Origin: a virus
Length of the DNA: 64,000 nt
Direction: 5' to 3' (one strand)
Virus record (IMG/VR): IMGVR_UViG_3300021478_000001
Coordinates: 1-64,000 of that record
Under the pieces are notes generated by a model that was not told the DNA's origin, did not search any database, and saw nothing but the letters and a program-made list of their open reading frames with translations. A program made the position numbers and the translations under genes. Below are positions 26,819 through 49,584 of this stretch, piece by piece (positions within the stretch are counted from its first letter, which is position 1; the number at the start of each line of letters is the position of its first letter).

Positions 26819-28328
26819 AAAGGTTTCGGCCAAGCAAGTTATCCATTGGATTGAGAACACGCTCTATGTTCCTGAGGGTCGTTTCATTGGTCAGCCTATG
26901 CGGTTGGCTCCTTGGCAGAAAGACGAACTCAGGAACATTTACGATAATCCAGCTGGCACGCGCCGTGCTATCCTCAGTTTTGCGCGCAAGAATGGCAAGA
27001 CGGCGTTAAGTGCTTGTCTATTGCTGGTGCATCTGTGTGGACCGAAGGCGATTCCTAATTCTAGCTTGTATTCTGCGGCGCAAAGCCGTGATCAGGCTTC
27101 GTTAATTTTTAATCTGGCTGCAAAGATTATTCGCATGGCTCCAGTGTTGCATGATCAAATCGTTATCAAGGAAGCTACCAAGGTTTTGGAATTTCCCACT
27201 TATGGCTCCAAATATCGGGCGCTTAGTGCAGAGGTGACGACGGCATATGGCTTGTCGCCGGTGTTTGTTGTTCATGATGAGCTCGGGCAAGTGCGCGGTC
27301 CGCGAAGCAGTTTGTATGAAGCACTCGAGACTGCGACTGGTGCCCAGGAAAATCCGCTCAGCGTAATTATCTCTACACAAGCACCGACGGACGGGGATCT
27401 GTTAAGCATATTAATCGATGATGCTTTGACAGAAGCAGATCCTCGCGTGGTTTGCAAAGTGTATTCTGCGCCTATGGATATTGATCCATTCTGTGAAGCG
27501 GCATTGCGATTGGCTAATCCAGCTTATGGTGACTTCCTTAATCCACAGGAAGTCTTGGGTATGGCTAATGATGCCAAGCGCATGCCCGCGCGTGAGGCGG
27601 AATATCGTAATCTGGTGCTTAATCAACGTGTGGAGGCGTTGGCACCATTTGTGAGTAAGGACGTTTGGGATCGCTGCGGCTTTGCGACTGAAGATATCAT
27701 GGATACGCCGGTTTATGGTGGGTTGGATTTGAGCGAAGTTAAAGACCTCACTGCATTGGTTCTCATAGGTATGGTGCATGGTAGATGGCAAGTGCATCCT
27801 ACATTTTGGTTGCCGAGCGAGGGGATTGCCGAGAAGGCGCGCAATGATCGGGTGCCTTACGATTTGTGGGTGAAGAATAAATCTTTGGAGACCACGCCTG
27901 GACGGAGTGTCAGCTATGAGTATGTGGCTAATTATCTTCGTGGTGTATTTGATACCTATGATATTAGGAAGCTGGCATTTGATACTTGGAACATGAAGCA
28001 TCTGAAGCCGTGGCTGGAGCAGGCCGGTTTTAGCGAACAGGAAATCAAGGATAAGTTCGTGGAGTTCGGGCAAGGCACTAAATCTATGTCGCCGGCGCTA
28101 CGCGAGCTTGAAGAAATCTTGTTGGAAGAGAAAATGGCGCACGGCATGCATCCGGTATTGTCCATGTGCGCTGGAAATAGCGTGGTGGAAGGCAAGGATA
28201 GTGCCAATCGCAGACTATCCAAGAATAAATCTTCAGGTCGCATAGATGGAATGGTGGCGTTGGCCATGGCTGTAGGGGCCGCGCCATTGAAAGCACCGCA
28301 AGTAGACATAGAAGCTTTGATAGGGTGA
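26736..28328 (+). CDS. Terminase large subunit (P27/Terminase_1 type)
   Basis: 530 aa packaging ATPase/nuclease. The Walker A-like motif is SFARKNGKT, the Walker B is FVVHDELGQ, and the C-terminal RuvC-like nuclease begins YGGLDLSEVKDLTALV with further acidic residues in RKLAFDTWN and SGRIDGMVALAMA. It translocates DNA into the prohead and cuts the concatemer. The ATG used has a weak ribosome site and is probably coupled to the small subunit. Confidence 0.95.
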   Translation: MKQSRKKTRKTVSQSSVSHSKWITLPPEKVSAKQVIHWIENTLYVPEGRFIGQPMRLAPWQKDELRNIYDNPAGTRRAILSFARKNGKTALSACLLLVHLCGPKAIPNSSLYSAAQSRDQASLIFNLAAKIIRMAPVLHDQIVIKEATKVLEFPTYGSKYRALSAEVTTAYGLSPVFVVHDELGQVRGPRSSLYEALETATGAQENPLSVIISTQAPTDGDLLSILIDDALTEADPRVVCKVYSAPMDIDPFCEAALRLANPAYGDFLNPQEVLGMANDAKRMPAREAEYRNLVLNQRVEALAPFVSKDVWDRCGFATEDIMDTPVYGGLDLSEVKDLTALVLIGMVHGRWQVHPTFWLPSEGIAEKARNDRVPYDLWVKNKSLETTPGRSVSYEYVANYLRGVFDTYDIRKLAFDTWNMKHLKPWLEQAGFSEQEIKDKFVEFGQGTKSMSPALRELEEILLEEKMAHGMHPVLSMCAGNSVVEGKDSANRRLSKNKSSGRIDGMVALAMAVGAAPLKAPQVDIEALIG

Positions 28329-29154: not shown

Positions 29155-31143
29155 ATGCCGATTATACCATGGGAGTGTGCACATGGTGATACACCATCTG
29201 TCTCGCTGCCATGTGCATCTACTGTTGCGATTGCGCCGCTTGATGATTCGGTAGATACGAACAATGTTATAATCACTGGTTCGGGGACTATTACTTCATT
29301 TGGACTCGGGCCATTAGTCACCAAACAAGTTACGTTTGAACCAAGTGGATCCATCGTATTAACTCATAGTGCTTCGTTATCGTTGCTTGGTCATGCAACA
29401 AGGACAATCACTAATATATCTGTAGGAAAATATTCCTGTGACGGTGCAGGTAATTGGATAGAATTAAGTTTTACTGATACTGTTGTAGGAGGTGGATCTG
29501 GTGGTGGTCCGGGAGCAACTGGTCCAACAGGTCCTACAGGACCGACTGGTCCAGCTGGTTCTTCTGGCGGTGCCACTGGTCCGCGTGGTGCAACTGGTCC
29601 TACAGGACCAACTGGATCCACTGGTCCTACAGGACCACAAGGAATTGTTGGTCCGACTGGCGCGACTGGTATTACAGGATCGGCTGGAGTTGTTGGACCA
29701 ATTGGACCAACGGGTCCGCAAGGTAATGTTGGTTCTACAGGAACGACTGGAGCAACAGGTCCACAAGGAACTGCTGGATCACCTGGAGGTGCCACTGGAC
29801 CAACTGGTCCTGCTGGCATAAATGGTGCGACTGGAGCGACGGGTGCATCAGGTTCTCCTGGTTCTCCTGGAGGAGCAACAGGAGTTACCGGCCCGACTGG
29901 TCCACAAGGAATAGTTGGTCCAACTGGCCCAATAGGAGTTACAGGACCGACAGGTTTACAAGGACTAGCTGGTCCAACTGGACCAACTGGTTTAACAGGA
30001 ATTACTGGACCAACTGGTTTGCAGGGAATAGCTGGTCCTACTGGTCCACAAGGAGTAGTTGGACCAACTGGTCCTATAGGGTTGACAGGTACGACTGGTC
30101 CGACAGGAGTTGGTACGACCGGCGCTACTGGTGTAACAGGTCCTATTGGAGTTACTGGACCTATTGGGCCAACAGGAGGAGCTGGACTAGCAGGACCAAC
30201 TGGTCCAACTGGACCGTCAGGATCTGCTGGAGGGGTTGGACCAGCAGGAACTACCGGAGCAACTGGACCTACAGGATCTGCTGGTGGTGCAGGTCCACAG
30301 GGAGTAACAGGTCCTACTGGACCATCAGGATCTGCTGGTGGTGTAGGAACTACCGGAGCAACTGGACCGACTGGTCCAATAGGATCGGCTACGGTTTTGT
30401 GTGGTTGGATTGCTGGGTTAACACTTTCGAATGACGGTACGACGCCAACGACCAAGCTTGATATTGCCGCCGGTCAAGCCGCCGACAGTGGCAACGCCGC
30501 GCTGATCAGTATCGGCGCGTTCATCAAGGCGATCAGCGGCGCGTGGGTTTTTGGTTCCGGCAACAACGGCATGGGCAACGGACTCACTGTTGCCGCGAAC
30601 ACTTGGTATCACGTTATCCTGGCGAACAATAACGGCACGCCGGATATCTACTTCGATACCTCGGTAACTGGAGCAAACAGGCCAAGCGGTATTTCTGATA
30701 CCAAAGTTCGTCGTATCGGCTCGTTCAAGACCAACGCCTCGTCGCAGATTATCGCGTTCATTCAGAACGGTGAAGAGTTTTTGTGGGCTATTCCGGTCAC
30801 TGATTATAGCGCTCAGGGTCAAGGAGCGACGGCTAATCTTTATGTCTTGTCGGTGCCGACAGGAGTTCAAGTTTGGGCGATATTCTCAATCCAAATTAAC
30901 GGCACGACAATAGTAACAAACTTGCTGGTCTATTCTCCAGACATGGGCTCCGGTCTTACGGCAACCATGGGATCAGGCGGCATTACAACGCGCATGGGAG
31001 CGGCAAACTCGGTCAGCGCCACTATCCCTGCTCCAGTGCGAACCAATACTAGCGGTCAGGTCTATGTTGTTCAGAACGCCGCTGGTAACAGCTTCTCACT
31101 CACGACTTTGGGTTGGATAGATCGGCGCGGTATGGACGCGTGA
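29155..31143 (+). CDS. Collagen-like virion fibre protein (662 aa)
   Basis: A short beta-rich N-terminal domain (1-112) is followed by about 300 residues of Gly-x-y repeats rich in GPTG and GATG (about 116-413), expected to form a trimeric collagen-like rod. A C-terminal globular domain of about 245 residues, rich in Gly, Ser and Thr, follows. Location between terminase and capsid genes suggests a head fibre or decoration protein rather than a tail fibre. The 3' part is more GC-rich than the collagen section. Thr-rich collagen repeats of this type may be glycosylated, which is relevant to the glycosyltransferase at 61077. Confidence 0.85.
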
Positions 31144-31545: not shown

Positions 31546-34152
31546 ATGCCCATGAAACCGCATAAAGGTGAAAGCCAGAGTGATTTTATGAGTCGCTGTG
31601 TGCCAGAAATGATGGGCGATGGCAAGCGTGAACAGGATCAAGCTGTGGCAGCGTGCGCACAGATTTGGCGAGATAAGGACAAGATGATGAAAAATCCAGC
31701 TAAGGAGTATGCAGATCCAGGTTATCAAGCGGATGGTAAGAAGCGATTTGCCATCGATACCAAGGATCAAGTGCGTGTAGCATGGTCTATGGTTCATAAT
31801 GCTAAACTTGAAAAGAATTACACGGTAGCACAACTTAGTCGGATTGAAATCCGTATTACGAACGCTTGGAAAATTTTAGTTGATCCTAGTGGTCCACCAG
31901 CTATTGATGATATTGGTGCTATGCAGGCATTGCGAAAGACAGTAGTTAAAATTGGTGATGCACCTGATGTTGAAGAAGGTGAAAGTCACGATGATTACAT
32001 GGATCGCTGTATGGAGGAACTAGGCGCTGAAGTTGGTGGCGACAGTCCTGATGATGATGAAGCAGAAATTGCTTGTGAAGAGATGTTTGAACTTTCTGAA
32101 GAAGAAAAAGCTGTGTTTGGATCTGCTCTCATTATGCACAAGACACATGCGGAAGCAGCAGAAGGGATGGAGTTTATTTTATCTGACGCCACGGCAGATC
32201 GCTTTGGTGATATCGTGGAAGTTAATGGGTGGGATTTTGAAAATTTTAAGAAAAATCCTATTGCTTTGTTCGGTCATAATTCGTCCTTCCCGATAGGGAA
32301 GTGGAAGAACATCAGGATTAACGAAGACAAGGATCTTCGCGCTGAATTGCAGTTGGCTCCGAAAGGCACCAGTGATCGTATTGATGAAATTCGCAAACTG
32401 ATTGAAGCGGATATTCTTCGGGCAACATCTGTGGGCTTTCGACCGTTGGATCATGCACCAATTAACAGCAAAGATCCTTGGGGTGGAACGAGATATACCA
32501 AACAAGAATTGGTGGAATGCAGTCTGGTATCAGTACCAGCAAATCCCAATGCTTTGGCTGTAGCCAAGAGCTTGAATATTTCTCCATCTACCGTTCGCAT
32601 GGTGTTTGGCGAGGATGCCAGCAAAGGCATTGTGCAGCGGAGTTTAGACGTCGCGAACCGTGGCGAGCATGCCGACAATAAGCGGGGCGCAAAAGAGGGT
32701 ACTAAAACTGGCGAGCATGCCGAACGTAACGGTGAAAGAGCGAAAGGACAAAAAATGTTGCTTTCACAGCGCATCCAGGAGGCGGAGAAAAATCTCCTAG
32801 CTCTCCAGGATAATCTCGACAAGCATCTCGAGGGTATCGACGATGGGAACCCCTCTGAAGATCAGATGGTTCTCACCGAAGATTTCACTGCCAAGATTGA
32901 GGTTGCCACGCGGCATCTCAAAAATCTCAAGGCTATCGAGACCAGGAATGCTGGTGGCGCGCAGGATGTAGGTGATCTTGAAAAGCGTGGGAATGGTAAG
33001 GCGCCTGCGAATGTCAGCATCATTCTGCCCAAGAAGAAAGTGGAACCGCTTGACTTTTTGGTACGCGCGGCGTTGGTGCGTTGCAAGTCCAAGATCGACG
33101 GCGCCACTATCGATGATACCCGCCGGAAGATTTACGGCGATGATGAAGCTACGCGCGTCATGTGCGACTTGATGCTGAAAGCAGCGAGCGCGCCGGCGAT
33201 GACTACTGTGACAGGATGGGCTGCAGAACTTGTGCAGACTATCTGGGCAGCGTTCATGGAAGTCTTGTTGCCTGTGAGCGTTTATCCGCGACTTTCGGCG
33301 GCTGGTCTGTCGCTGACGTTTGGTGCTGCCGGTAAGATTATCATTCCTACTCGTAATCTTACTCCATCGATCAGCGGCAGCTTTGTTGGAGAAGGTCAAC
33401 CTATTCCAGTGAGACAAGGTGCCTTCTCGTCGCAACAACTTACGCCGAAGAAGATGGCTGTCATCACGACCTGGACTCGTGAGATGGACGAGCATTCAAT
33501 CCCAGCAATTGAGGGTCTGCTGCGGCAAGCCATCCTGGATGATACCGCAATCAGCCTGGACACTGTTTTGTTGGACGTCAATCCGGCCACGGCAATACGT
33601 CCGCCTGGTTTGCGTTCTTACCAGGCAGGACTCACGCCATCAGCTGTTGCAACTAATCCGTTTGCGAATTTTGTTGCTGACTTCAAGTCGCTCTATGGGG
33701 CGCTCTTGACGTTGACTAGCGGCAATGTTCGTAATCCGGTTATTATGTTGAATCCAACACAGGTCTTGGGTATCTCGTTGATCCAACCTCCGAATGCTGC
33801 TACCACTTTGTTCCCATTTATGACCATGATCGATGGGGGCAAAATTCTCAAGGTGGGTTTGATTGAGTCGGCGACGGTACCGGTGGGCATGGCCATCATG
33901 GTGGATGCTGCTGATTTCACAACTGCTGGCGCTGAAGGTCCGCGCTTGGAAATCAGTGATCAAGCAACACTGCATATGGAAGACACCACACCGCAGGATA
34001 TCGTTGGAGGTGGTGCATCTGGCCCGACTGTTGCTAATCCTGTGAAGAGTATGTGGCAGACGGATAGCTTGGCGCTGCGCTTGATCATGCATATGAACTG
34101 GATCATGCGGCGTCCGGTAGTTTCCTGGATGACTGGAGTCCAGTGGGGTTAA
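31546..34152 (+). CDS. Head maturation protease fused to HK97-type major capsid protein
   Basis: 868 aa. The N-terminal 190 residues contain two Cys-bearing repeats (GES-x2-DFM-x-RC at about 8-17 and GES-x2-DYM-x-RC at about 145-154). An S78 prohead protease follows (about 205-345), with catalytic candidates H244 (FGHNSS) and S295 (TSVGF). A charged coiled-coil delta/scaffold-like segment (about 404-470) precedes the HK97-fold capsid (about 510-868, SFVGEGQPIPVRQ at about 612-624). An in-frame ATG at 32755 (residue 404) has AAAGGA 6 nt upstream and would release a separate 465-aa capsid. Major virion shell protein. Confidence 0.9.
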   Translation: MPMKPHKGESQSDFMSRCVPEMMGDGKREQDQAVAACAQIWRDKDKMMKNPAKEYADPGYQADGKKRFAIDTKDQVRVAWSMVHNAKLEKNYTVAQLSRIEIRITNAWKILVDPSGPPAIDDIGAMQALRKTVVKIGDAPDVEEGESHDDYMDRCMEELGAEVGGDSPDDDEAEIACEEMFELSEEEKAVFGSALIMHKTHAEAAEGMEFILSDATADRFGDIVEVNGWDFENFKKNPIALFGHNSSFPIGKWKNIRINEDKDLRAELQLAPKGTSDRIDEIRKLIEADILRATSVGFRPLDHAPINSKDPWGGTRYTKQELVECSLVSVPANPNALAVAKSLNISPSTVRMVFGEDASKGIVQRSLDVANRGEHADNKRGAKEGTKTGEHAERNGERAKGQKMLLSQRIQEAEKNLLALQDNLDKHLEGIDDGNPSEDQMVLTEDFTAKIEVATRHLKNLKAIETRNAGGAQDVGDLEKRGNGKAPANVSIILPKKKVEPLDFLVRAALVRCKSKIDGATIDDTRRKIYGDDEATRVMCDLMLKAASAPAMTTVTGWAAELVQTIWAAFMEVLLPVSVYPRLSAAGLSLTFGAAGKIIIPTRNLTPSISGSFVGEGQPIPVRQGAFSSQQLTPKKMAVITTWTREMDEHSIPAIEGLLRQAILDDTAISLDTVLLDVNPATAIRPPGLRSYQAGLTPSAVATNPFANFVADFKSLYGALLTLTSGNVRNPVIMLNPTQVLGISLIQPPNAATTLFPFMTMIDGGKILKVGLIESATVPVGMAIMVDAADFTTAGAEGPRLEISDQATLHMEDTTPQDIVGGGASGPTVANPVKSMWQTDSLALRLIMHMNWIMRRPVVSWMTGVQWG

Positions 34153-34262: not shown

Positions 34263-34592
34263 ATGGCAGAAGAAAAGCACGTATCGGAAGAAGCAAAAAA
34301 GCGCATGGCGGAAGATAAGAAAAAACTTGAAACTGAGCGTGAAGCACGCGCCAAGGCGCAAGCAGAACACCAAAAGAAGATGACAGGTCGACCGACTCCT
34401 ACTCAGGAAGAAGCCGACTTAATCAAGCTTGGTCATCATCCGGAACTTGAACCTGATGGTTCTACAGATCCGTATGCTGTTCCTACCACTACCGAGACCA
34501 AGCATATGGAGCATGCTGAAGGTAAGCCGTATCAGACGCGCCAGCAAATGCCGGCGAGTGGACGCGGCAGCACTGAAAGCAAGTCTTCCTAA
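34263..34592 (+). CDS. Charged coiled-coil head-region protein (109 aa)
   Basis: The first 40 residues are almost all Glu, Lys, Ala and Arg, predicted coiled coil. The rest is Pro/Thr/Gly-rich and likely disordered. AAAGGAG precedes the ATG at 34263. It may be a head accessory or scaffold-like protein. The stop is coupled to the portal start (TAATG). Confidence 0.6.
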   Translation: MAEEKHVSEEAKKRMAEDKKKLETEREARAKAQAEHQKKMTGRPTPTQEEADLIKLGHHPELEPDGSTDPYAVPTTTETKHMEHAEGKPYQTRQQMPASGRGSTESKSS

Positions 34593-36043
34593 TGGGCTTT
34601 GCAAAGCGCCTATCTACTTGGGCCGGAGCCGCCATCAAGGCGGTCTCCGGTTTTCCTGCCGAGGGCCAGTATCGTCCTGGTCCTTGGTATCTTCCTGTAA
34701 CACATGGATGGTTGCCCGCGGATGTTGGTAACTCTTTGAATTGGTGGCAGAACGGATATACTCCGATATTGCAAAGTGCACAGTTATCAATTATAGAAGC
34801 TTGTGTTGGTGCATATTCACAGACGATGGCGATGTGTCCTGGAGATCATTGGCGTTCTAAATCTAATGGTGGTCGAGAGCGTGTTACGAATTCTTCGCTG
34901 TGTCGTATCTTGCGATATCCTAATGATTATCAGTCAATGTCTGATTTTTTGTTGAATGCTGTGCGTCAATTGTATTTGCAGGGTAACGCCTATGCGCTTT
35001 GTATACGAAATTCACGTTTTGAAATTACTGAATTGCATCTTATGGATAACCGCTATTGTCGAGCGCTGATAGACGGTAGCGGTGAAGTGCATTATAGCTT
35101 GGGAGGCAATTGGGTTATTGAAAATCGTATAGGGCCATTAGCAACAGTGCCTCAGCGTGACGTGCTGCATATCAAATTGCATTGTGACCAGCTTCGTAAT
35201 CCATTGATTGGTCAGACGCCATTGGCGGCGGCTTATTTGGATACTGCAATGGGACAAAGTATTAAGGAACAACAATTCATATTTTATCAACGCCAAGCAA
35301 AGCCTGGATTTGTGCTGAGCACTGATCTAACTTTGGAAAAAGATCAAGTCAGTGCTCTGCGTGATCGTTGGACAGAACAAACGACTGGAGCCAATACTGG
35401 CGGTACTCCAATTCTTACTGGAGGTTTGAAGCCGCAACAGATTCCAGTAACAAGTTGGCGTGATGCTCAACTCGCTGAGTTGCTCAAGCTGACAGATCAA
35501 GATATCGCCATGGCTTTTCGAGTGCCGCCGCAGATAATAGGTATACCGGCGCACAGTACTCATGGCACGACAGAAGCAATGATGCGTTCTTGGATTGCTA
35601 CTGGATTTGGATTCTGCATCAATCATGTTGAAGAAGCTTTTGGATTGACCTTTGGTCTCAAGGGTCAGCCTGATGATTATGTAGAATTCAGCACAGACAT
35701 TCTTTTACGATCTGACTTTAAGGATCGTATTGATGGGCTTACTAAAGCCGTGGTCGGTGGTATCTTTTCACCGAATGAAGCACGGAATCAAGAAGATCTT
35801 CCTAATGTGCCGTTTGGAGATGAGCCGCGCGTGCAACAACAAGTAGTCCCGCTCAGTGCAGCGGGTAAAATACCAGCATCGCCTGCCGCTCCGCCAGCAC
35901 CTCCGGCACCAAAAGCACCGGAGGAGCCGCAGAGGAGCTTGAACGCTGATGCAAGAAGAAACAGCTTTGCCAGAATCCTCCTTAACAGATCAAGACAACT
36001 TGAACGGGAACAACAGCGAAGAATTTCCGGACGCGTTGCTTGA
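34592..36043 (+). CDS. Portal protein, HK97 family
   Basis: 483 aa. The pattern of the HK97 portal is clear: an N-terminal helix, [19 protein letters not shown], the [10 protein letters not shown] segment, the KPGFVLSTD strand, then [20 protein letters not shown], typical of the family. It forms the dodecameric ring for DNA entry and tail attachment. The C-terminus is Pro/Ala-rich and overlaps the following collagen-like gene by 95 nt. Confidence 0.92.
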
Positions 36044-37514
36044 TGCAGGTGCGGCGGTTCTAGCTCAACTCCGTGAGGAGTGGAAGAGAGAATGGTCGCG
36101 AGATTATGAAGTTATGCAATCGAAACACCGCGAATTTGAAGCGGTGATGCGTGCTGAGTTACTTATGATCAGACTTGAAGTTTCTAACTTGTTAGCACAA
36201 GTCAAGCACGGTGATCCTGGAGAGCCTGGAGAGCCTGGACGTAATGGCGCCGATGGAGATAAAGGCGACAAGGGCGATAAAGGTGATAAAGGTGATCGCG
36301 GTGAAAAAGGTGATAAGGGAGATCTTGGAGAACCGGGACGTAATGGAGATCCTGGATTGCAAGGCATTAAAGGTGAACAAGGTCTTCCTGGTTTGCCAGG
36401 AGTAACTGGACCTCAAGGTTTGAAAGGTGATTCTGGAGAACCTGGACGTAATGGTGAACCTGGAATGCGCGGTGAGCGTGGTGAAATTGGACAACAAGGT
36501 TTGATTGGACCTATTGGAGAGCGTGGTGAAAAAGGTGATTCTGGAGAGCCGGGACGTAATGGTGTTGATGGTTTGATTGGACCACGTGGTGAAAAAGGTG
36601 AATGTGGAGAACCTGGATCAATTGGAGAGCGTGGTGAAAAAGGTGATCCTGGAGAGCCAGGACGTAATGGCGCTGAAGGTTTGATTGGACCGCGTGGTGA
36701 GAAAGGCGAACCTGGATCAGTTGGATTGCGTGGTGAGAAAGGTGATATTGGAGAACCTGGACGCAATGGCGCTGATGGTTTGATTGGGCCATGCGGTGAA
36801 AAAGGTGATCAAGGGGACCGCGGTGAAAAAGGTGAGCCGGGAATACCTGGATTAAGCATTAAAGGTGATCAGGGAGAGCGCGGTGATAAAGGGGAACGTG
36901 GTGAAAGCGGCTCACGTGGTGAGAGGGGTGAAGTGGGCGATCCGGGGCGTAACGGCGCAATGGGAGAGCGTGGTCCCCAAGGTGAAAAAGGCGACCGTGG
37001 TGAAGCCGGTCCGCGCGGTACGATAGAAAGAATTGTTCCGTGGACAGATCGCATCTTTTATGAAGGTGATCTGGCAACTCATAGAGGTTCCAGCTGGCAA
37101 GCAGTTCGCGATACCGCAAAAGAACCTGATAGTACTGATGATTGGAGACTAATAGCGGCGGCTGGTCAGCCTGGAGTAACATTCAATATTCGTGGTACGT
37201 ATTCTGAGAAAGAAATTTATCGAGCTCTTGATGTAGTCACTTTGGATTATGGATGGTTTGTAGCCAAGAAAGATAATCCAGGTGTGATTCCTGGTCCTGG
37301 TTGGCAGTCTGGTCCTGTGGGCAAGCGTGGTGAAAAAGGTTTGCCTGGAGATAAAGGACCGCAAGGACCAGTAGGTAAGGCCGCGCCGCATTGGATAGGT
37401 GTTAAGATTGATGGTTATGACTTGATAACTGTTTTGAGCGATGGCACAATGGGTCCTAAAATTTCCTTAACTAAAATGTTTGATCAATTCATAGCGGAAC
37501 AGTTGAGGAAGTGA
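35949..37514 (+). CDS. Charged collagen-like virion fibre (521 aa)
   Basis: A helical N-terminal domain (1-87) with a coiled-coil segment is followed by about 270 residues of Gly-x-y repeats rich in Lys, Glu, Arg and Asp ([16 protein letters not shown], about 88-358). Blocks recur every 33-36 residues, each containing GEPGRNG and GLIGP. A domain with Trp- and Tyr-rich strands ([21 protein letters not shown]) resembles small carbohydrate-binding modules, and a further short collagen stretch precedes the C-terminal domain. Position next to the portal suggests a head or neck fibre. It overlaps the portal gene. Confidence 0.85.
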
Positions 37515-37517
37515 GCT

Positions 37518-38168
37518 ATGCAACAGATCCTCAATGTAATCACCAAGTCTGACACGTATGATTTAGTGACGCTTGCTGAAATGAAAATGAAAATGTTTAT
37601 TCCGACTACGGATACAAGCAAGGATGCTTTGTTGCAGGAATTGATTACCAACATTTCTGAAACGATTGCTAAGATGTGTAATCGTGTATTTGCTTATGAA
37701 AAGGTTGATGAAAGCTATTATCAGCTTAGTGATGATTGTTATACTCAACGTCTGTATTTGTCGCGTTGGCCTGTGGTTAAGACAGACATTGAAACTTTTA
37801 TGCAGAATCAGATTGATATTTCTAGTTGGTTAGCAGATGGTACTTGTGTGCTTGAAGAAGAAACAGGCACCATTTATCTATCATCAAGTAATGGACCATG
37901 GACTGGTCAAGTTGATGTAGTTTACAGCGGCGGCTATCAATTGCCGGATGGCGCACCAGGAACATTGAAGTTTGCTGTTGAAGCTGTTATTCGTGAAAGT
38001 TACATGTCGTGGATTAGAAATCCAGCATTGTTTGGAGTTCGTTTGTTAACTCATAAGCAAGCGCGCATAGGCTACTATGGTCCGAATATGTTTCCAGTAA
38101 TGGGACTTCCACAGACTTGGAAGACTGTTGAAAGCTTGATCTACAAATACATACGTCATTGGGTCTGA
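37518..38168 (+). CDS. Head-tail connector protein (HK97 gp6-like)
   Basis: 216 aa. The N-terminal helical part (VTLAEMKMKMFIP, TTDTSKDALLQELITNISETI) matches gp6-type connectors, which form the ring under the portal. The C-terminal part adds a beta-rich extension ending WKTVESLIYKYIRHWV. It follows the portal and precedes tail-completion genes, as expected. Confidence 0.78.
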   Translation: MQQILNVITKSDTYDLVTLAEMKMKMFIPTTDTSKDALLQELITNISETIAKMCNRVFAYEKVDESYYQLSDDCYTQRLYLSRWPVVKTDIETFMQNQIDISSWLADGTCVLEEETGTIYLSSSNGPWTGQVDVVYSGGYQLPDGAPGTLKFAVEAVIRESYMSWIRNPALFGVRLLTHKQARIGYYGPNMFPVMGLPQTWKTVESLIYKYIRHWV

Positions 38169-38178
38169 AAGGTGGACA

Positions 38179-39243
38179 ATGAAACAGGATCGTGATCTAG
38201 TCAAGCAATTGACTCAGCAACCTTCCAATCAGGTTTGGCGTGCCGCTACCGCAGTTGTTAAGGGGCATGTGCTAGGTTGCACCGCGGAACAAGCGGCAAG
38301 AGGCTTGTATCCTGATGATCCAGTCACACCATTGATCTTGCGCGCGGGCAGTACGCAAGCGACAACGACGGATCCAGCATGGGCTGGACCGCTGGCGCAA
38401 TATGCGGTGTCGCAAGCAATTGAAGATATTGTAGCGATGACTGTCGCTTATCGTTTGGAAATGGGCGGCGCATTGCGTATAGATTTAGGACGATTGGCAT
38501 CAGTGACAGTTCCTGGCCGTGCTGTATCACCGGCTGATGCTGGAACATGGGTTGGAGAAGGACAACCAATTCCAGTTCGGCAAATGAATATTTTTCCAGG
38601 AGCAAAATTAACGCCGACAAAGTTGGCAGTTATCGTGACTTTGACGCGAGAAATTACTGAAGCATCTAATATTGAAGATGTTTTGAAAAAGCTTTTGACA
38701 GAAGCTGCCGGAATAGCATTGGATACTGCGTTGTTTAGTACAGCGGCAGTGTCGGCAGTGAAACCGGCAGGACTACTATATGGTGTGACTCCACTAACTC
38801 CAATATCGAGCACTCTTGGTTTTGATGCTTGCGGCCAAGATATGGGTCTTCTTGTGCAAGACATTGCTACTCGTGGGGGAGGCCGCAATGCTTTCTTTAT
38901 CGCAGCTCCTAAACAAGCAACTTCAATACGGTTTTTTGCTGGTGGTCAATTTGGTGATGCACCAGGAAAAGATATTCTGCCTGTCGCTGCATCTGTTGGT
39001 CTGCCTGTTGGGACCGTGGTATGTTTGGAGCCAGAAAGTTTGGTGTTCACCATTGCTGATCCACAGTTTTCGATCTCTAGTGTGGCAGCCGTGCAACAAG
39101 AAGATACGACGCCGACGTCAGATCTTACAAATGCTACCAAGTCGATGTATCAGATTGATGCTTATGCTTTGAAGATGATTGTGTGGGCGAGTTGGGGTTT
39201 GCGTGCTCCACATGTTTCTTTTATGAGCACTGTAAACTGGTAA
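38179..39243 (+). CDS. Second HK97-type capsid paralogue (354 aa)
   Basis: No protease domain. It aligns with the capsid part of the 868-aa fusion: VGEGQPIPVRQ (residues 125-135) is identical in both, followed by LTPTKLAVIVTLTRE versus LTPKKMAVITTWTRE. Both end with an EDTTP segment, then VK/TKSM-x-Q-D and W-x-VNW/VQW. The copy lacks the delta/coiled-coil segment and is highly diverged, so it is not a recent duplicate. It may be a minor capsid, vertex or portal-proximal protein. The two genes are separated by the portal, a collagen fibre and a connector. Confidence 0.82.
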   Translation: MKQDRDLVKQLTQQPSNQVWRAATAVVKGHVLGCTAEQAARGLYPDDPVTPLILRAGSTQATTTDPAWAGPLAQYAVSQAIEDIVAMTVAYRLEMGGALRIDLGRLASVTVPGRAVSPADAGTWVGEGQPIPVRQMNIFPGAKLTPTKLAVIVTLTREITEASNIEDVLKKLLTEAAGIALDTALFSTAAVSAVKPAGLLYGVTPLTPISSTLGFDACGQDMGLLVQDIATRGGGRNAFFIAAPKQATSIRFFAGGQFGDAPGKDILPVAASVGLPVGTVVCLEPESLVFTIADPQFSISSVAAVQQEDTTPTSDLTNATKSMYQIDAYALKMIVWASWGLRAPHVSFMSTVNW

Positions 39244-39244
39244 A

Positions 39245-39616
39245 ATGTTTTTCATCCAAATAGATGCTAGTTCAGTCATCGAGCGGGTTGATGATATGAT
39301 TGGCAAATTGAAAGGATTTCCAAATTTTATGGCCGATGAGTTAACTCATTGGCAAGCTGAAGACATGCATCGGACTGTTGGATTGAATACTGCATTAAAA
39401 GAAAATGTGGCTGAAACAATTATTACTCAGCATACCCAACCAGGAGAAGCACATCTCGTGCGTACTTCACGGCGTAGGATACGCAGAGTGTCTTCTAGAC
39501 AGCTTTCAGCGCGACGTGGTTCAGCTAGTGAAAAACCGATTCTTCGGCAATCGCTTTTGGATTTGCTAGATCAGCGAATGCAAATGTTGTTGCAGGGTAA
39601 AATCACGTGGCGATAA
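39245..39616 (+). CDS. Putative neck or tail-completion protein (123 aa)
   Basis: Not firmly recognised. Helical with FMADELTHWQAEDMHRTVG, then an Arg-rich segment. It lies between the capsid paralogue and a probable head-tail joining protein, where HK97 gp10-like or tail-completion proteins are expected. Starts 2 nt after the upstream stop. Confidence 0.5.
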   Translation: MFFIQIDASSVIERVDDMIGKLKGFPNFMADELTHWQAEDMHRTVGLNTALKENVAETIITQHTQPGEAHLVRTSRRRIRRVSSRQLSARRGSASEKPILRQSLLDLLDQRMQMLLQGKITWR

Positions 39617-39957
39617 ATTTTTCTACAGATTTGTATGGACCGTGCCAGGATACATTTGGTCGTCCTGTTACGTTTACGTCTACAAAAGGAAATTCCTTTA
39701 GCGGACCAGCGCGTGGCATTTATCGGAGTGATGAAATCAATATTGTTTTGGAAAATGGGTCTATAATTACTGATCAACAAACTATTTTGGATATTAAGAC
39801 TGATGAATTTTCTGTCTTGCCGGTGCAAGACGATACTATCAATATTCCTTTTGAACCTATATCAGGAGTGCCTGCGCTTGGTGATTTTCAAATCATTAAT
39901 CTATGGCACAATGGGGGTGGTGAGACTACTCTAGTGATACGGAAAATTGAACCGTGA
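39607..39957 (+). CDS. Putative head-tail joining protein, GTG start (116 aa)
   Basis: Beta-rich small protein with DTFGRPVTFTSTKGN and IYRSDEINIVLENG, resembling gpFII-like head-tail joining proteins that seal the connector. The start is a GTG at 39607, overlapping the upstream gene by 10 nt. The function is mainly positional. Confidence 0.55.
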   Translation: MAINFSTDLYGPCQDTFGRPVTFTSTKGNSFSGPARGIYRSDEINIVLENGSIITDQQTILDIKTDEFSVLPVQDDTINIPFEPISGVPALGDFQIINLWHNGGGETTLVIRKIEP

Positions 39958-40956: not shown

Positions 40957-42549
40957 ATGCCCATTAGCTATGCAAATATTCCGGCGAATATCAAGGTGCC
41001 ACTCTACTATGTGGAGGTGGATCCTTCGATGGCTGGTCTGCCGAGCATTAATCTGCGTGCTTTGCTAATTGGCATTATGATTGCCGATGGTGTGGCCACT
41101 AAAGATATTCCGATTCCTATTGGTTCTCAGGCGCAAGCGGATCGAGCGTTTGGGCCTGGTAGTGAATTGAGCAGAATGTTTCAAGCTTACTACGCGAATA
41201 ATTTTGCGAATGAAGTCTGGGGTCTCCCGGTGGCTGAACCGGCAGCTTCAGCGGCAGCGACTGGTACTATCGTGGTGACGACAGCACCAACACAAGCGGG
41301 CACCATCCATTTGTATATCGCCGGTACTCATGTGCCTGTCAATGTTATGTCGACAGACACAGTGACTGACATTGCAGCTGCGATTGCCGATGCAATCAAT
41401 ACTCAATACACAAATCTTGGTACTCCGGCTCTACCTGTGACTGCGGTTGCTGCTACTGGTACAGTGACATTGACAGCATCATTCAAAGGCGTGAATGGCA
41501 ATGATATCACGGTCACTACCAACTATTATGGTACTCGTGGTTCTGAGATCACGCCTGTTGGTTTGGCCATGACTTTGCCGACGACAGGTTTGTTGACTGG
41601 TGGTACTGGCGTGCCGATATTTGACAATGCTATCAACAATATTCAAAAGACGCAATTCGAGTACGTCGCCATGCCGTATACTGACTCCAACAGTCTGTTT
41701 GCTTGGGATCAAGAATTCGGGTTTACAGATTCTGGGCGTTGGGGTTGGAACAGACAGATGTTTGGTCATGTGTTCAGTGCTAAGCGTGGCTTGTATGCCG
41801 ATCTGTTGCTGTATGGTGAAACGCTTAATAGTGCTGTGGAATCTATTATGGCGTTTGAAAATACAGCGTTATCCCCAATGTTTGAAGTGTCAGCGGCATA
41901 CGCTGCTAAAGCGCAGCGCGCATTGATCAATGATCCGGCACGGCCGTTGCAGTCGTTGGCGCTTAACAAGATTAAGGGATGCCCGCATCAGGATGATTTT
42001 AATTGGGCAGAACTGAATGCGATTGCATCCAGTGGCTTGGCTATCCAGGAGCGTGGCTCTGATAATCAACCTATGATCGCCAGAGAACAAACATCCTATC
42101 AAGTGAATCTCTATGGCCAGCCAGATGATGCTTATGAATTGGTGACTACGTTGGCCACACTCGCCAAACTGTTGCGTAATCAGAAAGCTGCGATCACATC
42201 CAAGTTCCCGCGCGCGAAACTCGCTGATGATGGTACCAGATTTGGACCCGGACAGGCAATAGTAACTCCTGGGATTATCAAGGCAGAGCTTGTCAATGAG
42301 TATCAGCTCGATTCCTGGAATGGGCTTGTGGAAAATCTGCGGGCGTTCAAAGCCAACTTGCTTGTTGAACGTGATCCAAACGATCCTAACAGGGTTAATG
42401 TTCTGTATCCGCCAGATCTTATCAACCAGCTTCGTGTCTTTGCAGTGCTGGCACAATTCAGACTGCAATACGACAGAGGCATTGATCTGGCCATTATAGG
42501 GCAGGCACCATCTCCGTTCCAAGCGTCATCTGGTGCACCAGCACAGTAA
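40957..42549 (+). CDS. Tail sheath protein (Mu gpL-like)
   Basis: 530 aa contractile sheath. Features are INLRALLIG near the N-terminus, then GSQAQADRAFGPGSELSRM, a variable Ala/Thr-rich insert, and the conserved C-terminal domain with GLVENLRAFKANLLVERDPNDPNRVNVLYPPDLINQLRVF (read in parts). The C-terminus carries the hand-shake strand typical of sheaths. This establishes a contractile-tailed phage. AAAGGAGG precedes the ATG. Confidence 0.93.
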   Translation: MPISYANIPANIKVPLYYVEVDPSMAGLPSINLRALLIGIMIADGVATKDIPIPIGSQAQADRAFGPGSELSRMFQAYYANNFANEVWGLPVAEPAASAAATGTIVVTTAPTQAGTIHLYIAGTHVPVNVMSTDTVTDIAAAIADAINTQYTNLGTPALPVTAVAATGTVTLTASFKGVNGNDITVTTNYYGTRGSEITPVGLAMTLPTTGLLTGGTGVPIFDNAINNIQKTQFEYVAMPYTDSNSLFAWDQEFGFTDSGRWGWNRQMFGHVFSAKRGLYADLLLYGETLNSAVESIMAFENTALSPMFEVSAAYAAKAQRALINDPARPLQSLALNKIKGCPHQDDFNWAELNAIASSGLAIQERGSDNQPMIAREQTSYQVNLYGQPDDAYELVTTLATLAKLLRNQKAAITSKFPRAKLADDGTRFGPGQAIVTPGIIKAELVNEYQLDSWNGLVENLRAFKANLLVERDPNDPNRVNVLYPPDLINQLRVFAVLAQFRLQYDRGIDLAIIGQAPSPFQASSGAPAQ

Positions 42550-43464: not shown

Positions 43465-43622
43465 CAGCAGACGCAGAGGAATTAATTCTGGACTGCTACA
43501 GGTTAGCTCAATATTATCATCAGCATCCTAATATCTTTCTGGAAATGACATTAGAGGAGGTCAAGCTACATGGTTATCGTACGGCGCAATTGATAGAGCG
43601 GCGAAGGGCGCAGGAAGAATAA
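43024..43622 (+). CDS. Tail assembly chaperone, -1 frameshift product
   Basis: At 43431-43437 the heptamer T-TTT-TTT lies in frame as GAT-TTT-TTT. A -1 slip continues in the other frame through SPRSAGLAVAADAEELILDCY and a helical domain ending QLIERRRAQEE, stopping at 43622. This is the layout used by many tailed phages to make a long chaperone (gpG/gpGT type). The extension has no start codon with a ribosome site, so fusion is the best explanation. The TAA overlaps the tape-measure ATG. Confidence 0.72.
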
Positions 43623-46600
43623 TGGCTGACCAATATGAAGAACTAAGACTGCAAGTAAACTTGCAGGACAATGCGTCTACCGGACTAGTTGCGCTTAAGA
43701 AACAATTGGACGAATTAAGCAGGTCTGGGATAGCTGAAAGATTTAGAGATCAAGCTTCTATTTTTGAACGAAGCATGAAAGCTTTAGGAGTAGAAGCAAC
43801 AGGTGCAGCCAAGTCTCTAAAAGAATTAGCTGGCCAATACAGCGGCTTGCTAGGTGGAGCGGTAGCTGTTGGATTTGCCAGCTACAAGATACAAGAAAAT
43901 TTCCGTAACCTGACAGGGGAAATAAATGAAACGCGGATAGCGGCTGAAGAACTTGGAATTGCTTATTCTGAATTGCATCATATTAATGAGGAATTGAGTA
44001 AGTCCGGTTATTCTGTTGCTGAGTCTACAAAGCTTGCAGCGCAAGTTGAAAATGCTATGTATGAAGCACGTAAACATCGTGTTTCACAGATGTTTCAGGA
44101 CCTGATTACTATGACTGCGCGTCCTGATATTATGTTGACTTTTCGCAAGGAGTTGGCGGAGAGTAAAGACACCGCAGATGGTATTGCAGCTTTTCTAAGA
44201 ATGAATAAGGCAGCTTCTGATTCAATTGCTAAGAATAATGTGGATGCTGATAAGCACCGTATCGCAACTGATAGTGCCCGTGCTAGGGAACGTCTAAACC
44301 AAGCGGCAGGCGTTACCATTGATCTTAATCGTGTAAGAGATATTGGAAAAGAAACTGAGGAAGAAAAAGCACGAAATGAAGCGTTAGCCGCTAGTGTTAA
44401 GACATTGAATGAACAATGGGCCGCTACTGAAGTTAATTTGACTCGGATAAGAGATGTGATTCTTTTGCCCATTATTAGTGAAGGTAGTGTATTCTCTAAT
44501 TTTGTTAAAGGAGGCGCTAAGACTACTGATGAAATAGCTACTAAGATGGAAGCTTGGCAAGCAGGATTGAAAGGCAGCTTCTGGGATTTTTTCAAAATAC
44601 CTCCTGGAATTCAAGCTCTTGTTGATAGATTATTAGGAATATCAAATAAAGGAATGGGTGGTGGACCTCAAGGTGGTGCTCCATTTGGAAAAGGTGGTCC
44701 ACCATTTGGAAAGGAGGGGTTTAAATCTCCTCCTACTAGTCCAGTACAAACTCATGATATGCTTGGACCAGTTACTAAAGGACCGGAACTTGTAGCGCCT
44801 CCACTAAAATCAGATTTAGGAAATGATATAGGCATCAATGCTCCCATTTTAAATCAAAAGAATCAAAATAGAAAATGGGGACCAATGGATTTGATGCCTG
44901 GTTCCGATATGTTGCGTTTTAGCGGAGGTGGCGGTGATCAGCTTGGTTATCCTTGGAATCAGATGCGTAAGTCAACAAATATTGAAGATCGCCGCGCTGA
45001 AGGCGAAGAATTTATGAAGCGCCGTGAGGAAAATACCAAACTGCTTATTCAAGTAAATGACAGACTGTTTGCTTTGTTGCAGCCACAAGGGGATACACAA
45101 TCTCCAGCATTTCGCGGGCTTGGTGGCTTGCCAGGACTTGGTGGACGCGCCGGACCCGGTTATGGTAGAGGGCCAAGTGCTGCGCCAAGTGCTGCGCCAA
45201 GTGCTGCGCCAAGTGCTGCGCCAAGTGTAGGTCCAAGCGGAACGCGTGATAGGGGGACTGGACCTAACGTTACTGCTCCGTTAGGTCCGCCTCCGGCAGG
45301 AGGACCATTAACTCCGGAGGGAATGGCTCTTCTTGATACCATTGCAACACGGGAGGCTGAACCAGCCTTCAAGGACAACAAACGAGCTGGATGGGATGTG
45401 GGTGTTGGTGGTAAGTCATTAGATGTCAGTAATCCTCCTGTTAATAAACCAGGAGCAACATATTCATATCACGGAGAAACTATAGATATTGGTGGCGTTG
45501 AGATGCATCCTCACCACCAGTATCCAGGTTGGGGTGGTTTTCGAGGAGGGGCTGGTACATCTTTTGCATTTGGCCGTTATCAAGAAACGGTCCTAACTTA
45601 TTATGAGAATGTCAGGAGAAGTCAGAAGCTGCATCCTGGAATGAAGGTCGATGGTTGGTCACCAGAGGCACAGAACATTCGTAACTGGGATAAAGCTCAA
45701 GAGGTTTATCGCCGTAATTATTCGAAGACAGGAGTCCAAGATCTCACTGGTGACTTGCAAAAAGATCTAGAAGCCAATAAGGGTAATCCAGAAGCTATTG
45801 GACGAATGTCTGGTGCATTGAGTGGTGAGTGGACTTCTGCTCCTGGTGGTCGTGAAGGATCAAAGGTTACTGGTGGCAAAGTTCAGTATTATGGCGCTAC
45901 ATTTCAGAAGATGTTGGAAGCACAGACTAAAGTTCCTGCAACAGCAAAAGGAGCTCCTGGTGGTGGTCTTGGCCAGCTTGGAAGAGCTGCGGCCTCGCCC
46001 TCGCCAGTTGGTGATGCAACTCTTCAAGAAAATGTTAAGTTTCTTGAAGAAAGAGGTGGTCATAGTGAGATTAATAGGAAGAGTGGACCAATTGGTGCAA
46101 CCGGACAAATAAATCCTGAATTTATTGCTCGTATGGTTGCTGCCGGTAAAGATTATGAGAAGGAAACTGGCAAGAAAGCAGTGTTTGGTGAGTTTGATCG
46201 TGACTATGCCACTCAGCAGTATTATAGGTCTGAATATTTAAGAACTCATCAAGGACTAGCTGCTCCTGCTGGAACATCTAGGCATGAACATGCTGAGAGG
46301 GGAGCTGGAGATTTACCTACAAGTGATTTTCGTACTTGGATGGAGGCCAATCGAGAAAAATATGGGATTGAAGGTTTGCCTGGACATGCTGGAGTTGTGG
46401 ATCGCCCACATCAGCAGATGTCCAGGATCTATAAAGGACCATCATTTTATCATCCAACAGCAGCGACTGCGAAATCTCCTGCTGATCAAGCACCAACTAC
46501 AGCGCCGTCCACCAATCGTGGGGTGGCTATTTTACCGCAAGGCATTGAAGCGCGTTATGGTGGTCATGATCCCAAGGAAGTGGCACAGAGTCTTCGTGAT

Positions 46601-47161
46601 ATTGCTTTGGGGGAAGGCTTTTCAGACACCATTGTTATTTCTGGTGCCGGAACTCCTGAAGAAGAAACTGCCGCAGTTGTAGCTGCTCTTAATCGAGGTG
46701 ATGTTACTGGAGCGATTGGCTTTTCTAGAGGTGCTAATGTCCTAGAAAAGGTATTGAAAGATCCTAAGGTAGATCCTAAACTTAAAGAAAGGATTAAGGA
46801 AGTAGTTCTTATTGGTCGTACTCGTAAATATACAACAGGTAAAATTCCCGGCATTAAGACAATTGATATTCCAGAAATAGCTGGGAAGACCCACATGGAA
46901 TTGCCTGGAGAAGTTGCCAGGAAAGTTAAGGAAGAAGTGGAAAGAAGAAAGGCGAGGGATACTATAGATAGTGATGCTAAGAAAAGCAACGGTGTGGGCA
47001 AATCAAAAGTTTCTGGTAAGTTGACTGTGGACGTAGAAGCACCGGCAGGCACTAGAGTGCATGCGGTTGGCACTGGTCCATTTGAAAAGCCTACGATCCA
47101 GCGACGGCATCGGCCGCTGATTTCTCCTGAACCAGTTGTCGCTCCTAGCAATCTAGGTTGA
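43622..47161 (+). CDS. Tape measure protein 1 with muralytic domains (1179 aa)
   Basis: Residues 1-330 are the helical tape-measure region (EELRLQVNLQDNASTGL at the start) with a hydrophobic stretch at about 70-90. A Gly/Pro-rich linker (340-430) and four AAPS repeats (about 520-535) follow. Residues about 565-763 resemble a GH104-like muramidase (LLDTIATREAEP, then FAFGRYQETV). About 800-936 resembles a D,D-peptidase fold of the M15/VanY type (GTSRHEHAERGAGDL). About 965-1110 resembles an alpha/beta hydrolase (IGFSRGANV, nucleophile elbow at about 1033). The C-terminus is basic. It sets tail length and may open the cell wall on injection. Confidence 0.82.
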   Translation: MADQYEELRLQVNLQDNASTGLVALKKQLDELSRSGIAERFRDQASIFERSMKALGVEATGAAKSLKELAGQYSGLLGGAVAVGFASYKIQENFRNLTGEINETRIAAEELGIAYSELHHINEELSKSGYSVAESTKLAAQVENAMYEARKHRVSQMFQDLITMTARPDIMLTFRKELAESKDTADGIAAFLRMNKAASDSIAKNNVDADKHRIATDSARARERLNQAAGVTIDLNRVRDIGKETEEEKARNEALAASVKTLNEQWAATEVNLTRIRDVILLPIISEGSVFSNFVKGGAKTTDEIATKMEAWQAGLKGSFWDFFKIPPGIQALVDRLLGISNKGMGGGPQGGAPFGKGGPPFGKEGFKSPPTSPVQTHDMLGPVTKGPELVAPPLKSDLGNDIGINAPILNQKNQNRKWGPMDLMPGSDMLRFSGGGGDQLGYPWNQMRKSTNIEDRRAEGEEFMKRREENTKLLIQVNDRLFALLQPQGDTQSPAFRGLGGLPGLGGRAGPGYGRGPSAAPSAAPSAAPSAAPSVGPSGTRDRGTGPNVTAPLGPPPAGGPLTPEGMALLDTIATREAEPAFKDNKRAGWDVGVGGKSLDVSNPPVNKPGATYSYHGETIDIGGVEMHPHHQYPGWGGFRGGAGTSFAFGRYQETVLTYYENVRRSQKLHPGMKVDGWSPEAQNIRNWDKAQEVYRRNYSKTGVQDLTGDLQKDLEANKGNPEAIGRMSGALSGEWTSAPGGREGSKVTGGKVQYYGATFQKMLEAQTKVPATAKGAPGGGLGQLGRAAASPSPVGDATLQENVKFLEERGGHSEINRKSGPIGATGQINPEFIARMVAAGKDYEKETGKKAVFGEFDRDYATQQYYRSEYLRTHQGLAAPAGTSRHEHAERGAGDLPTSDFRTWMEANREKYGIEGLPGHAGVVDRPHQQMSRIYKGPSFYHPTAATAKSPADQAPTTAPSTNRGVAILPQGIEARYGGHDPKEVAQSLRDIALGEGFSDTIVISGAGTPEEETAAVVAALNRGDVTGAIGFSRGANVLEKVLKDPKVDPKLKERIKEVVLIGRTRKYTTGKIPGIKTIDIPEIAGKTHMELPGEVARKVKEEVERRKARDTIDSDAKKSNGVGKSKVSGKLTVDVEAPAGTRVHAVGTGPFEKPTIQRRHRPLISPEPVVAPSNLG
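45179..45226 (+). repeat. Tandem 12-bp repeat in tape measure gene
   Basis: GCTGCGCCAAGT repeated four times without change, encoding the AAPS linker repeat of tape measure protein 1. The copies are identical, so the array may vary in number between related phages. Confidence 0.8.
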
Positions 47162-47163
47162 TC

Positions 47164-49584
47164 ATGGCTGAGTTTGAAGAATTACGAATTGTAGTTTCTT
47201 TAACGGATCAGGCGTCGACTGGATTCAACAGCTTTAAGAAATCTATATCTGAATTTACCAGTGGTCAGCCAGCACAGCATCTGGAAAATTTCAAAAGACA
47301 TAACACATTGCTCACTCAACTTCTTAAGGCAACTGGTCTTGAAGCGACTGGCACATCTAAAGCTTTTATAGATTTGACTTCCAAGTTTGCTTTGAGTGCT
47401 GGCGTTATAGGTGCGCTTGGATACGCTCTGTATAAGACCACGAGCATTGTAGCTGATGCAGCTAAAGGGATTGTTGATCAAGCTAATAAATTGAAAGCTT
47501 TAGGTATTCCATATTCTGAGGGCAGGAACATTATTGAGCAATATGCTTTAGTGAATATAGAAGCTAATAAAACTATTGAAGATATTCAGGCAGCAAATCA
47601 ATTACAATTTGAAGCGCGTAAGGCGCATCATAGTGAGATGTTTGATCAACTGCGGCAGCTGGTGTTTAATGATCCGTATGTTAAAGATTTTCAAATACAA
47701 TTGCAAAATGCGAAAACGCAAGTCGAACTACAGAATGTGATTGTAGAAGGCCAAGAAAAATTTTCTGAACTTTCCAATAAGTATTATCATTCAGATGATG
47801 AGGCTACACAGAAAAGAACTAATGCTCAAACTAGAGCTCGATTCCGTGCGATAGTTGGTTTGAATGAAGAGTTTGACCGCGCAGTTAGAATTAAGGAAAT
47901 TGATAAGGATCGTGCTGCGTCTTTGGAAAAATTGAATACTGAAGCTCAAAAATTTACAAGATTGTGGAATGAGACTGCGGTAAATCTTGAAAGAATTGGT
48001 GGGGTGCTGGAAGGTGCAGCTATCCAGCAATTACTTCCACTGTTGCAGAGCGCCAAAGATCTAACCGGGGCCATTTTCCAATTGGTGACTGAAGGTTTTT
48101 CTGCTCTGAAAGATAAGAATTTTTGGGAGTCAATGATCAGTGGTGCTGATGTTGCTCGGTATGGAGGCTATGTATTGGGAGGTCCAGGAGCTATTTTGGG
48201 AGGAGTGGCAACCGAGGCCATACGGAATAGATTTAAGCAGCCTTCATCACAGTCGCCATCTAATTTTGGTCTTGATCAAGCACAGCCATTTTTAGGAATT
48301 CCTGGAGGAACAGAGAACGATAAGATCAATGATAATACTCGTGAGTTGAAAAGACTTAATGATAATCTCTATATTCTGTTGCATCCTGAAGTAATGAAGA
48401 ATAGTGGAACGGTATCTCCTGCTTCACAGCAAGTTCCGATTCCCGGCTTGCAACATGGTGGCATTGTTACTAAGCCGACAATTGCTATGATAGGTGAGGC
48501 TGGACCGGAAGCTGTTGTGCCGTTGCCACGTGGAAGACCAATCGGTCTAGGAGGAGATCCTGCGGTAGCTTGGCAAGAACTTCATGATCGTCTTATTAAA
48601 AATCCGAATGAAGCAGGAGCTTTAAGTTATTCTGAACGACCAATTTTGCCGGGCGAAAAAGGTATGCATTCAGAAATGGATCTTATGACTGGACCAGGGA
48701 TGTTTCCTGGGGGCGGTTCTATCTATCAACATTTGAAAGATGTAGAAAAGGGTATGGAAATGCAATTTGCAAGACCTAATGCAGATGATTATGTTTCTAC
48801 AAATCCAAGATTTGCACCTCATGATTTGCGTTTGCAACATGGCGGTATAGTTGATAAACCAACTACTGCATTGATAGGTGAAGCTGGTCCAGAAGCAGTT
48901 ATACCTTTACGGGATGCTAGGGCTCGTTATGCTGCTGAGATGTTAAAAGATCCAGCATTACGGGATCGGTTTATTTCTTTTGCTGAAGCAGAAACTGGCG
49001 GCCAAGGTAGAGGTGCTGCACAAGCTTGGATGGAAAGCACTTTAAATCGAGCAGCTTCACGTGATCAAACACTTTCAAGAGCGTTGAGTTCAGGGTCTGG
49101 TTATTGGCCACCACGAACTTTAGGAATAGGTGCGCAAACACCAACTGATAAGCAGCGTGATTATTATGATCCTGGTCTTGAATATGCTTTGGGTGGATCT
49201 AACATTTCAAGATTAGCTACAGGAAACGCTAGTAGTTCTGTTGGATTCGCAGGAGGTCCTGAAACATCACGAGTAGTATCTTCAAAAGGAAAAACTCTAG
49301 AACGTTTTGGTACTGAAGGCCGTGATATTGGATGGGCCAATAGGGAACGGATTGCAATATCTTTGCAAGATGTTCGTTCTACTATAGACACTGCATCTAG
49401 ATCGCCAGATATAGAAGCAGCGGGACATATCAAGGTGCAAGTCGGAGAGAGTGGTGGAAGATCAACTCCATTAGAAACATTATTCAAGCCAGTTCCGGAA
49501 GAACAAAAAGTACAGATGACCCCAGCTTCTGTGGGGCCATCAGAGCGTACACGCTCTGCGCCACCTTCTTTAGCAAACAGGTAA
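47164..49584 (+). CDS. Tape measure protein 2, paralogue of the first (806 aa)
   Basis: It starts at the ATG at 47164 (an upstream TTG is less likely). The N-terminal 250 residues align with tape measure 1: FEELRIVVSLTDQASTGF versus YEELRLQVNLQDNASTGL, then LEATGTSK versus VEATGAAK, ALGIPYSE versus ELGIAYSE and FEARKAHHSEMFDQL versus YEARKHRVSQMFQDL. Two further copies of a tape-measure motif, QHGGIV-x-KPT then IGEAGPEAVVPL (about 435 and 560), are characteristic of this class. It has no muralytic domains. It ends in a disordered Ser/Pro-rich tail. Confidence 0.82.
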   Translation: MAEFEELRIVVSLTDQASTGFNSFKKSISEFTSGQPAQHLENFKRHNTLLTQLLKATGLEATGTSKAFIDLTSKFALSAGVIGALGYALYKTTSIVADAAKGIVDQANKLKALGIPYSEGRNIIEQYALVNIEANKTIEDIQAANQLQFEARKAHHSEMFDQLRQLVFNDPYVKDFQIQLQNAKTQVELQNVIVEGQEKFSELSNKYYHSDDEATQKRTNAQTRARFRAIVGLNEEFDRAVRIKEIDKDRAASLEKLNTEAQKFTRLWNETAVNLERIGGVLEGAAIQQLLPLLQSAKDLTGAIFQLVTEGFSALKDKNFWESMISGADVARYGGYVLGGPGAILGGVATEAIRNRFKQPSSQSPSNFGLDQAQPFLGIPGGTENDKINDNTRELKRLNDNLYILLHPEVMKNSGTVSPASQQVPIPGLQHGGIVTKPTIAMIGEAGPEAVVPLPRGRPIGLGGDPAVAWQELHDRLIKNPNEAGALSYSERPILPGEKGMHSEMDLMTGPGMFPGGGSIYQHLKDVEKGMEMQFARPNADDYVSTNPRFAPHDLRLQHGGIVDKPTTALIGEAGPEAVIPLRDARARYAAEMLKDPALRDRFISFAEAETGGQGRGAAQAWMESTLNRAASRDQTLSRALSSGSGYWPPRTLGIGAQTPTDKQRDYYDPGLEYALGGSNISRLATGNASSSVGFAGGPETSRVVSSKGKTLERFGTEGRDIGWANRERIAISLQDVRSTIDTASRSPDIEAAGHIKVQVGESGGRSTPLETLFKPVPEEQKVQMTPASVGPSERTRSAPPSLANR

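Follow-up and report, generated by a model that had tools for sequence, protein, structure and literature searches.

What function could a soil phage derive from a second, shorter shell protein encoded beside its main capsid protein? The question is raised by a window of 64,000 nucleotides, which represents positions 1 to 64,000 of the 86.9-kb IMG/VR record IMGVR_UViG_3300021478_000001. The tail sheath gene identifies the phage as a myovirus, and the gene for the shorter protein (cap2) is embedded in the following set of head and tail genes:

26366–26818, plus strand: probable terminase small subunit (TerS), so named from its position before TerL
26736–28328, plus strand: terminase large subunit (TerL), from profile matches
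31546–34152, plus strand: 868-aa fusion protein comprising prohead protease, scaffold-like region, and major capsid domain (Peptidase_S78, 9.8e-9; phrog_617, 1.4e-79, residues 199–866)
33016–34149, plus strand: capsid domain of the fusion; modeled separately, it has the HK97 fold (Z 19)
34592–36043, plus strand: portal protein (Phage_portal, 5.5e-64)
37518–38168, plus strand: gp6-like head–tail connector, directly upstream of cap2 (phrog_442, 2.7e-13)
38168–38172, plus strand: AAAGG, the likely ribosome-binding site of cap2, read directly from the sequence 6 nt before the ATG
38179–39243, plus strand: cap2, 354 aa with the HK97 fold, lacking protease and scaffold domains (reading frame, alignment, profile, and structure model)
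39245–39616, plus strand: small gene directly downstream of cap2, without a named family but weakly conserved at the same place in relatives
39607–39957, plus strand: head closure protein Hc1/Phage_attach (Pfam and PHROG profile matches)
40957–42549, plus strand: tail sheath (phrog_165, 3.2e-145)

The head region also encodes two long collagen-like proteins with G-x-y repeats (29155–31143 and 35949–37514), the second of which sits between the portal and connector genes. Further downstream, two adjacent long proteins (43622–47161 and 47158–49584), which are possibly tape-measure-like, are related to each other over their N-terminal ~330 residues (24% identity, E 5e-24).

The reading frame of cap2 is intact, with an ATG start 10 nt past the stop of the connector gene; the AAAGG lies just past the same stop. 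The encoded protein matches the Pfam family Phage_capsid (PF05065) at 2.9e-6, which is over the gathering score, and PHROG 617 (major head protein) at 7.9e-16. AlphaFold2 models it with the HK97 fold (pLDDT 76): 238 PDB chains were recovered by Foldseek at E ≤ 0.001, with a probability of 1.00, and the VIA-align comparison with the HK97 prohead covers 243 residues at 4.3 Å (Z 16.4). Both profile and fold place cap2 among the HK97-fold phage capsid proteins. Encapsulins have the same fold, which is uninformative alone; unlike an encapsulin, which is a self-sufficient cargo shell encoded outside phage head operons, cap2 is located in a head cluster beside a full major capsid protein (MCP).

In a whole-length alignment with residues 500–867 of the fusion, cap2 has 120 identities over 370 positions (32%, E 6e-43), and these two are the only capsid-like places found in the record. 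The first-pass annotation had described cap2 as a clear but diverged paralog of the capsid portion of the fusion, which is borne out by both the alignment and the HK97 fold; the motifs that it quoted as common to the two proteins are indeed all present in both. The N-terminal start of cap2 corresponds to about residue 487–500 of the fusion, and the scaffold (delta) region is absent. Because cap2 begins right at the start of the capsid domain, it comprises neither protease nor scaffold.

The pair of capsid genes, which the same annotation had proposed to look for in related phages, recurs among relatives (loci with the same type of fused MCP, obtained from scans of IMG/VR and bacterial genomes) in three genomic places. 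Extra capsid genes are located between the connector gene and the next head–tail gene in the window and in L004–L006, L013, L019, and L162–L172, immediately before the sheath gene in L014, and in the interval from TerL to the MCP in L043, L045, L049, L060, L061, L069, L076, L082, L135, L118, and others. L043 encodes two tandem extra capsids (L043:2833–4953) plus the fused MCP and hence has three capsid genes. The phage version is present also in cultured Bradyrhizobium (B. stylosanthis BR 446 and B. erythrophlei GAS478), and other strains carry the satellites described below. In BR 446, the locus concerned is L135, which encodes TerL, the extra capsid, the fused MCP, and portal, connector, and sheath proteins. 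The records of JLK-2012, PAJU2, and RHph_X2_26, whose MCPs are of the same fused protease–capsid type (26–29% identity to the fusion of the window), gave one capsid hit each, and no extra capsid homolog was found in them.

The distribution of the extra gene is patchy. Among the 25 loci covered across both intervals, a sample biased by the way the loci were found, five have a copy upstream of the MCP, three have a copy downstream, and 17 have none, so that the MCP of the latter presumably makes its own pentamers. None of the 25 has copies on both sides, as expected if a single job is filled once. Genome length was dropped as a sign that cap2 makes bigger heads, because records of single-capsid relatives reach 72–82 kb and records may be fragments.

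Absence from many relatives, together with an evolutionary rate of the extra capsid 1.7–1.8 times that of the MCP, is what might be expected if cap2 were a decaying duplicate without function. Such decay is highly improbable, however, given that the reading frames are intact in the copies examined and that the invariant residues are conserved. Moreover, dN/dS between close pairs of extra capsids is 0.03–0.19, a range that leaves out the pairs of the window itself, where dS is saturated, and that indicates strong purifying selection. The distances among extra capsids also correlate with those among the MCPs, both in the connector-position set (Mantel r 0.87, p 0.001) and in the TerL-position set (r 0.77, p 0.0005). 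Purifying selection and correlated divergence suggest that the gene has probably been retained for a head-related function.

The two capsid proteins of the window differ in a loop of the A-domain, located by alignments:

33784–33843, plus strand: major capsid, long A-domain loop (residues 747–766 of the fusion), mostly missing in cap2
38938–38982, plus strand: cap2, shortened A-domain loop (approximately residues 254–268)

The corresponding stretch comprises 30–34 residues in the MCPs of the phage group of the window and 27–31 in other fused MCPs, but 15–25 in the extra capsids of phages and 12–18 in the capsids of satellites, with no overlap with the 27–34 of the MCPs. Since it follows the second A-domain helix in the structure model, the trimmed segment would be the A-loop.

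A-domains pack around the center of the capsomer. In T4, the vertices consist of gp24, a paralog of gp23 with about 20% identity, and the A-domain of gp23 is where some of the mutations that bypass gp24 are located (PMC9958956). Ccm of SaPIbov5, a capsid protein (CP) homolog with 24% identity to the CP of the helper, is located precisely at the pentamers and drives the formation of small heads, and the escape mutation T323P of phi12 lies in the A loop of the helper CP (PMC8569155); Ccm interference has been described also elsewhere (PMC5052747). From the shortened A-loop and these parallels, we infer that cap2 probably serves the phage head as a specialized subunit for pentamers (vertices), comparable to gp24 or Ccm. 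It would co-assemble with the scaffold-bearing MCP, which would make the hexamers, and would take up all or part of the 11 vertices other than that of the portal, since the trimmed A-domain is proposed to pack better around a five-fold than around a six-fold axis. The abundance or affinity of cap2 would then bias curvature and thus head size. Two observations speak against a dedicated vertex subunit: many relatives, including records of 72–82 kb, have a single capsid gene, and cap2 lacks the delta domain entirely, whereas Ccm retains part of it.

The location of cap2 between the connector and head-closure genes could also point to a place elsewhere in the head, such as the portal vertex, the neck, or a minor component of hexamers. 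We consider such a place improbable, since relatives carry the gene in two other places, including the interval between TerL and the MCP, and since cap2 has kept the whole HK97 subunit fold.

Relatives of cap2 are encoded also by elements other than phages. Integrated elements of ~10–11 kb with a lone capsid gene (L121, L142, L147, L149, L150, L154, L157, L158, and L178, also L136, L137, L139, L140, L144, and L148) are found mostly in Alphaproteobacteria and in one Rhodanobacter. They contain integrase, AlpA-like, and replication or primase genes and often TerS, albeit not every feature in every locus; among the matches listed (25 families per search), there is no portal, TerL, or tail-tube gene, and tail families are represented by one tail-fiber match. 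Direct repeats bound the elements L147 (52 bp, 11.3 kb), L142 (47 bp, 10.3 kb), L158 (59 bp, 9.9 kb), and L121 (23 bp, 10.5 kb), and the att-like repeats of L147, L142, and L121 lie inside annotated tRNA genes. By their gene content, the lone-capsid elements are PICI-like satellites, and gene content and att repeats together assign L121, L142, L147, L149, L150, L154, L158, L178, and others to this class.

The TerS of L178 (8766–9137), L150 (6086–6505), L154 (8985–9386), and L157 (11979–12530) share homology with TerS proteins from the phage group of the window (26366–26818 in the window), which points to such phages as helpers of the lone-capsid satellites but is at most suggestive. Two strains, Bradyrhizobium sp. 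SRL28 (L116 and L136) and Bradyrhizobium sp. Leo170 (L160 and L149), each combine a locus of the fused-MCP type with an element of the lone-capsid type, which makes these candidate helper–satellite pairs. A brief literature search found nothing on such satellites in Bradyrhizobium or Paracoccus and nothing relevant on a second capsid in Bradyrhizobium myoviruses, although published cases are possible.

Phylogenetic analysis (trees of 73–89 capsid proteins) connects the two settings. In the first tree, all MCPs lie across a branch (support 99/97) from the extra capsids at the two main positions; after addition of unfused capsids from bacterial genomes, the extra capsids of phages and the lone capsids form a clade opposite the fused MCPs (95/96), and in a later tree, the clade of unfused capsid homologs that includes cap2 (36 rows) is again apart from the fused MCPs (100/99). 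Since a supported branch divides the fused MCPs from the extra capsids, a recent tandem duplication was rejected as the origin of cap2; nor is there support for an independent origin at each of the three positions, the before-sheath copy of L014 being nested among the connector-position copies. The cap2 paralog is older than the split of the MCPs in the phage group of the window. Within the clade, the capsid of satellite L178 and the connector-position genes of phages are sisters (100/99), as are that of satellite L149 and the third capsid of L043 (100/96); the copy of prophage L118 groups with satellites L150, L154, and L157 (96/71; with L150 and L154 in an earlier tree, 100/96). The capsids of satellites L136, L139, L144, and L147 fall outside the main clade of extra capsids on long branches, which makes their placement unsure; their short A-loop may be convergent.

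Because cap2 forms one clade with satellite capsids, a role in capsid size or in phage–satellite conflict has to be considered. The main rival to the vertex proposal holds that cap2 is a size-redirector obtained from a satellite, or a counter-measure that was kept, and that it alters head size or hinders satellites or rival phages instead of being a routine vertex protein. The interleaving of satellite and phage copies in the groupings of L178, L149, and L118 is consistent with such an origin, as are the varying position and patchy presence of the extra capsid and the homology of the satellite TerS genes to those of the phage group. We nevertheless regard it as rather unlikely: cap2 lies among the head-completion genes and is preceded by a Shine-Dalgarno-like sequence of its own, close homologs occupy the same place in many relatives, the extra capsid co-evolves with the MCP, and by our own count, about four changes would be needed whichever way the transfer ran. 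That related phages and satellites both encode this type of protein suggests a location at the corners of the shell, possibly with a contribution to setting its size. If cap2 is a vertex subunit in the phage, the satellite version would act as a redirector in the manner of Ccm, building small heads from helper hexamers. A vertex or minor capsid role had been raised already by the first-pass annotation and agrees with the fold, the purifying selection, the loss of the scaffold, the short A-loop, and the analogy to the pentamers of Ccm, but that account overlooked the patchiness and the three positions, the old split, and the clade shared with satellites; the link to satellites is the new part.

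The resemblance to known systems is partial in each case. Like cap2, gp24 of T4 is a phage-encoded, diverged paralog of the major capsid protein in the genome of a myovirus and has the HK97 fold but no long scaffold domain, and the A-domain has been implicated in the choice of pentamers (PMC9958956); a T4 head chain is among the structure matches of cap2 (Z 13.4), which speaks to the fold only. Unlike gp24, cap2 belongs to a lineage with a fused protease–scaffold–capsid MCP, is patchily distributed among relatives, and shares a clade with satellite proteins. In the case of SaPIbov5 Ccm, which is compared here by features and not by sequence, the likeness extends to an HK97-fold CP homolog diverged from its partner CP (24% identity for Ccm, 32% for cap2), a reduced delta domain, relatives of cap2 encoded by satellites with integrase and TerS, and the pentameric location of Ccm (PMC8569155). 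By contrast, cap2 lacks any delta domain, whereas Ccm keeps a shortened one, and is encoded in the full head and tail cluster of a phage, although its clade-mates do lie in satellites. A capsid homolog and small particles are known also from PmCI172, a Gram-negative PICI (PMC6092414). Whereas PmCI172 and other Gram-negative PICIs with capsid homologs are associated with Pasteurella and enterobacteria, the lone-capsid elements occur mostly in Alphaproteobacteria and have a putative helper.

Both vertex paralogs and satellite capsid homologs are known kinds of proteins, and the dedicated vertex proteins of T4 and redirectors of the Ccm type are regarded as having been invented separately. Here, a single clade with good support occurs in both phages and satellites, with several crossings between them; no description of a single clade that serves both, with repeated crossings, was found in a brief search of the literature. 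It is plausible, if still short of probable, that a single family of pentamer proteins without a scaffold is exchanged between phages of the group represented by the window and satellites of Alphaproteobacteria, serving as vertex subunits in the phages and for the re-sizing of phage heads in the satellites. Since the clade spans both settings, the question of who took vertex proteins from whom becomes directly testable. If the proposed exchange is true, the corner of the capsid would be a traded weapon in the conflict between phages and their satellites.
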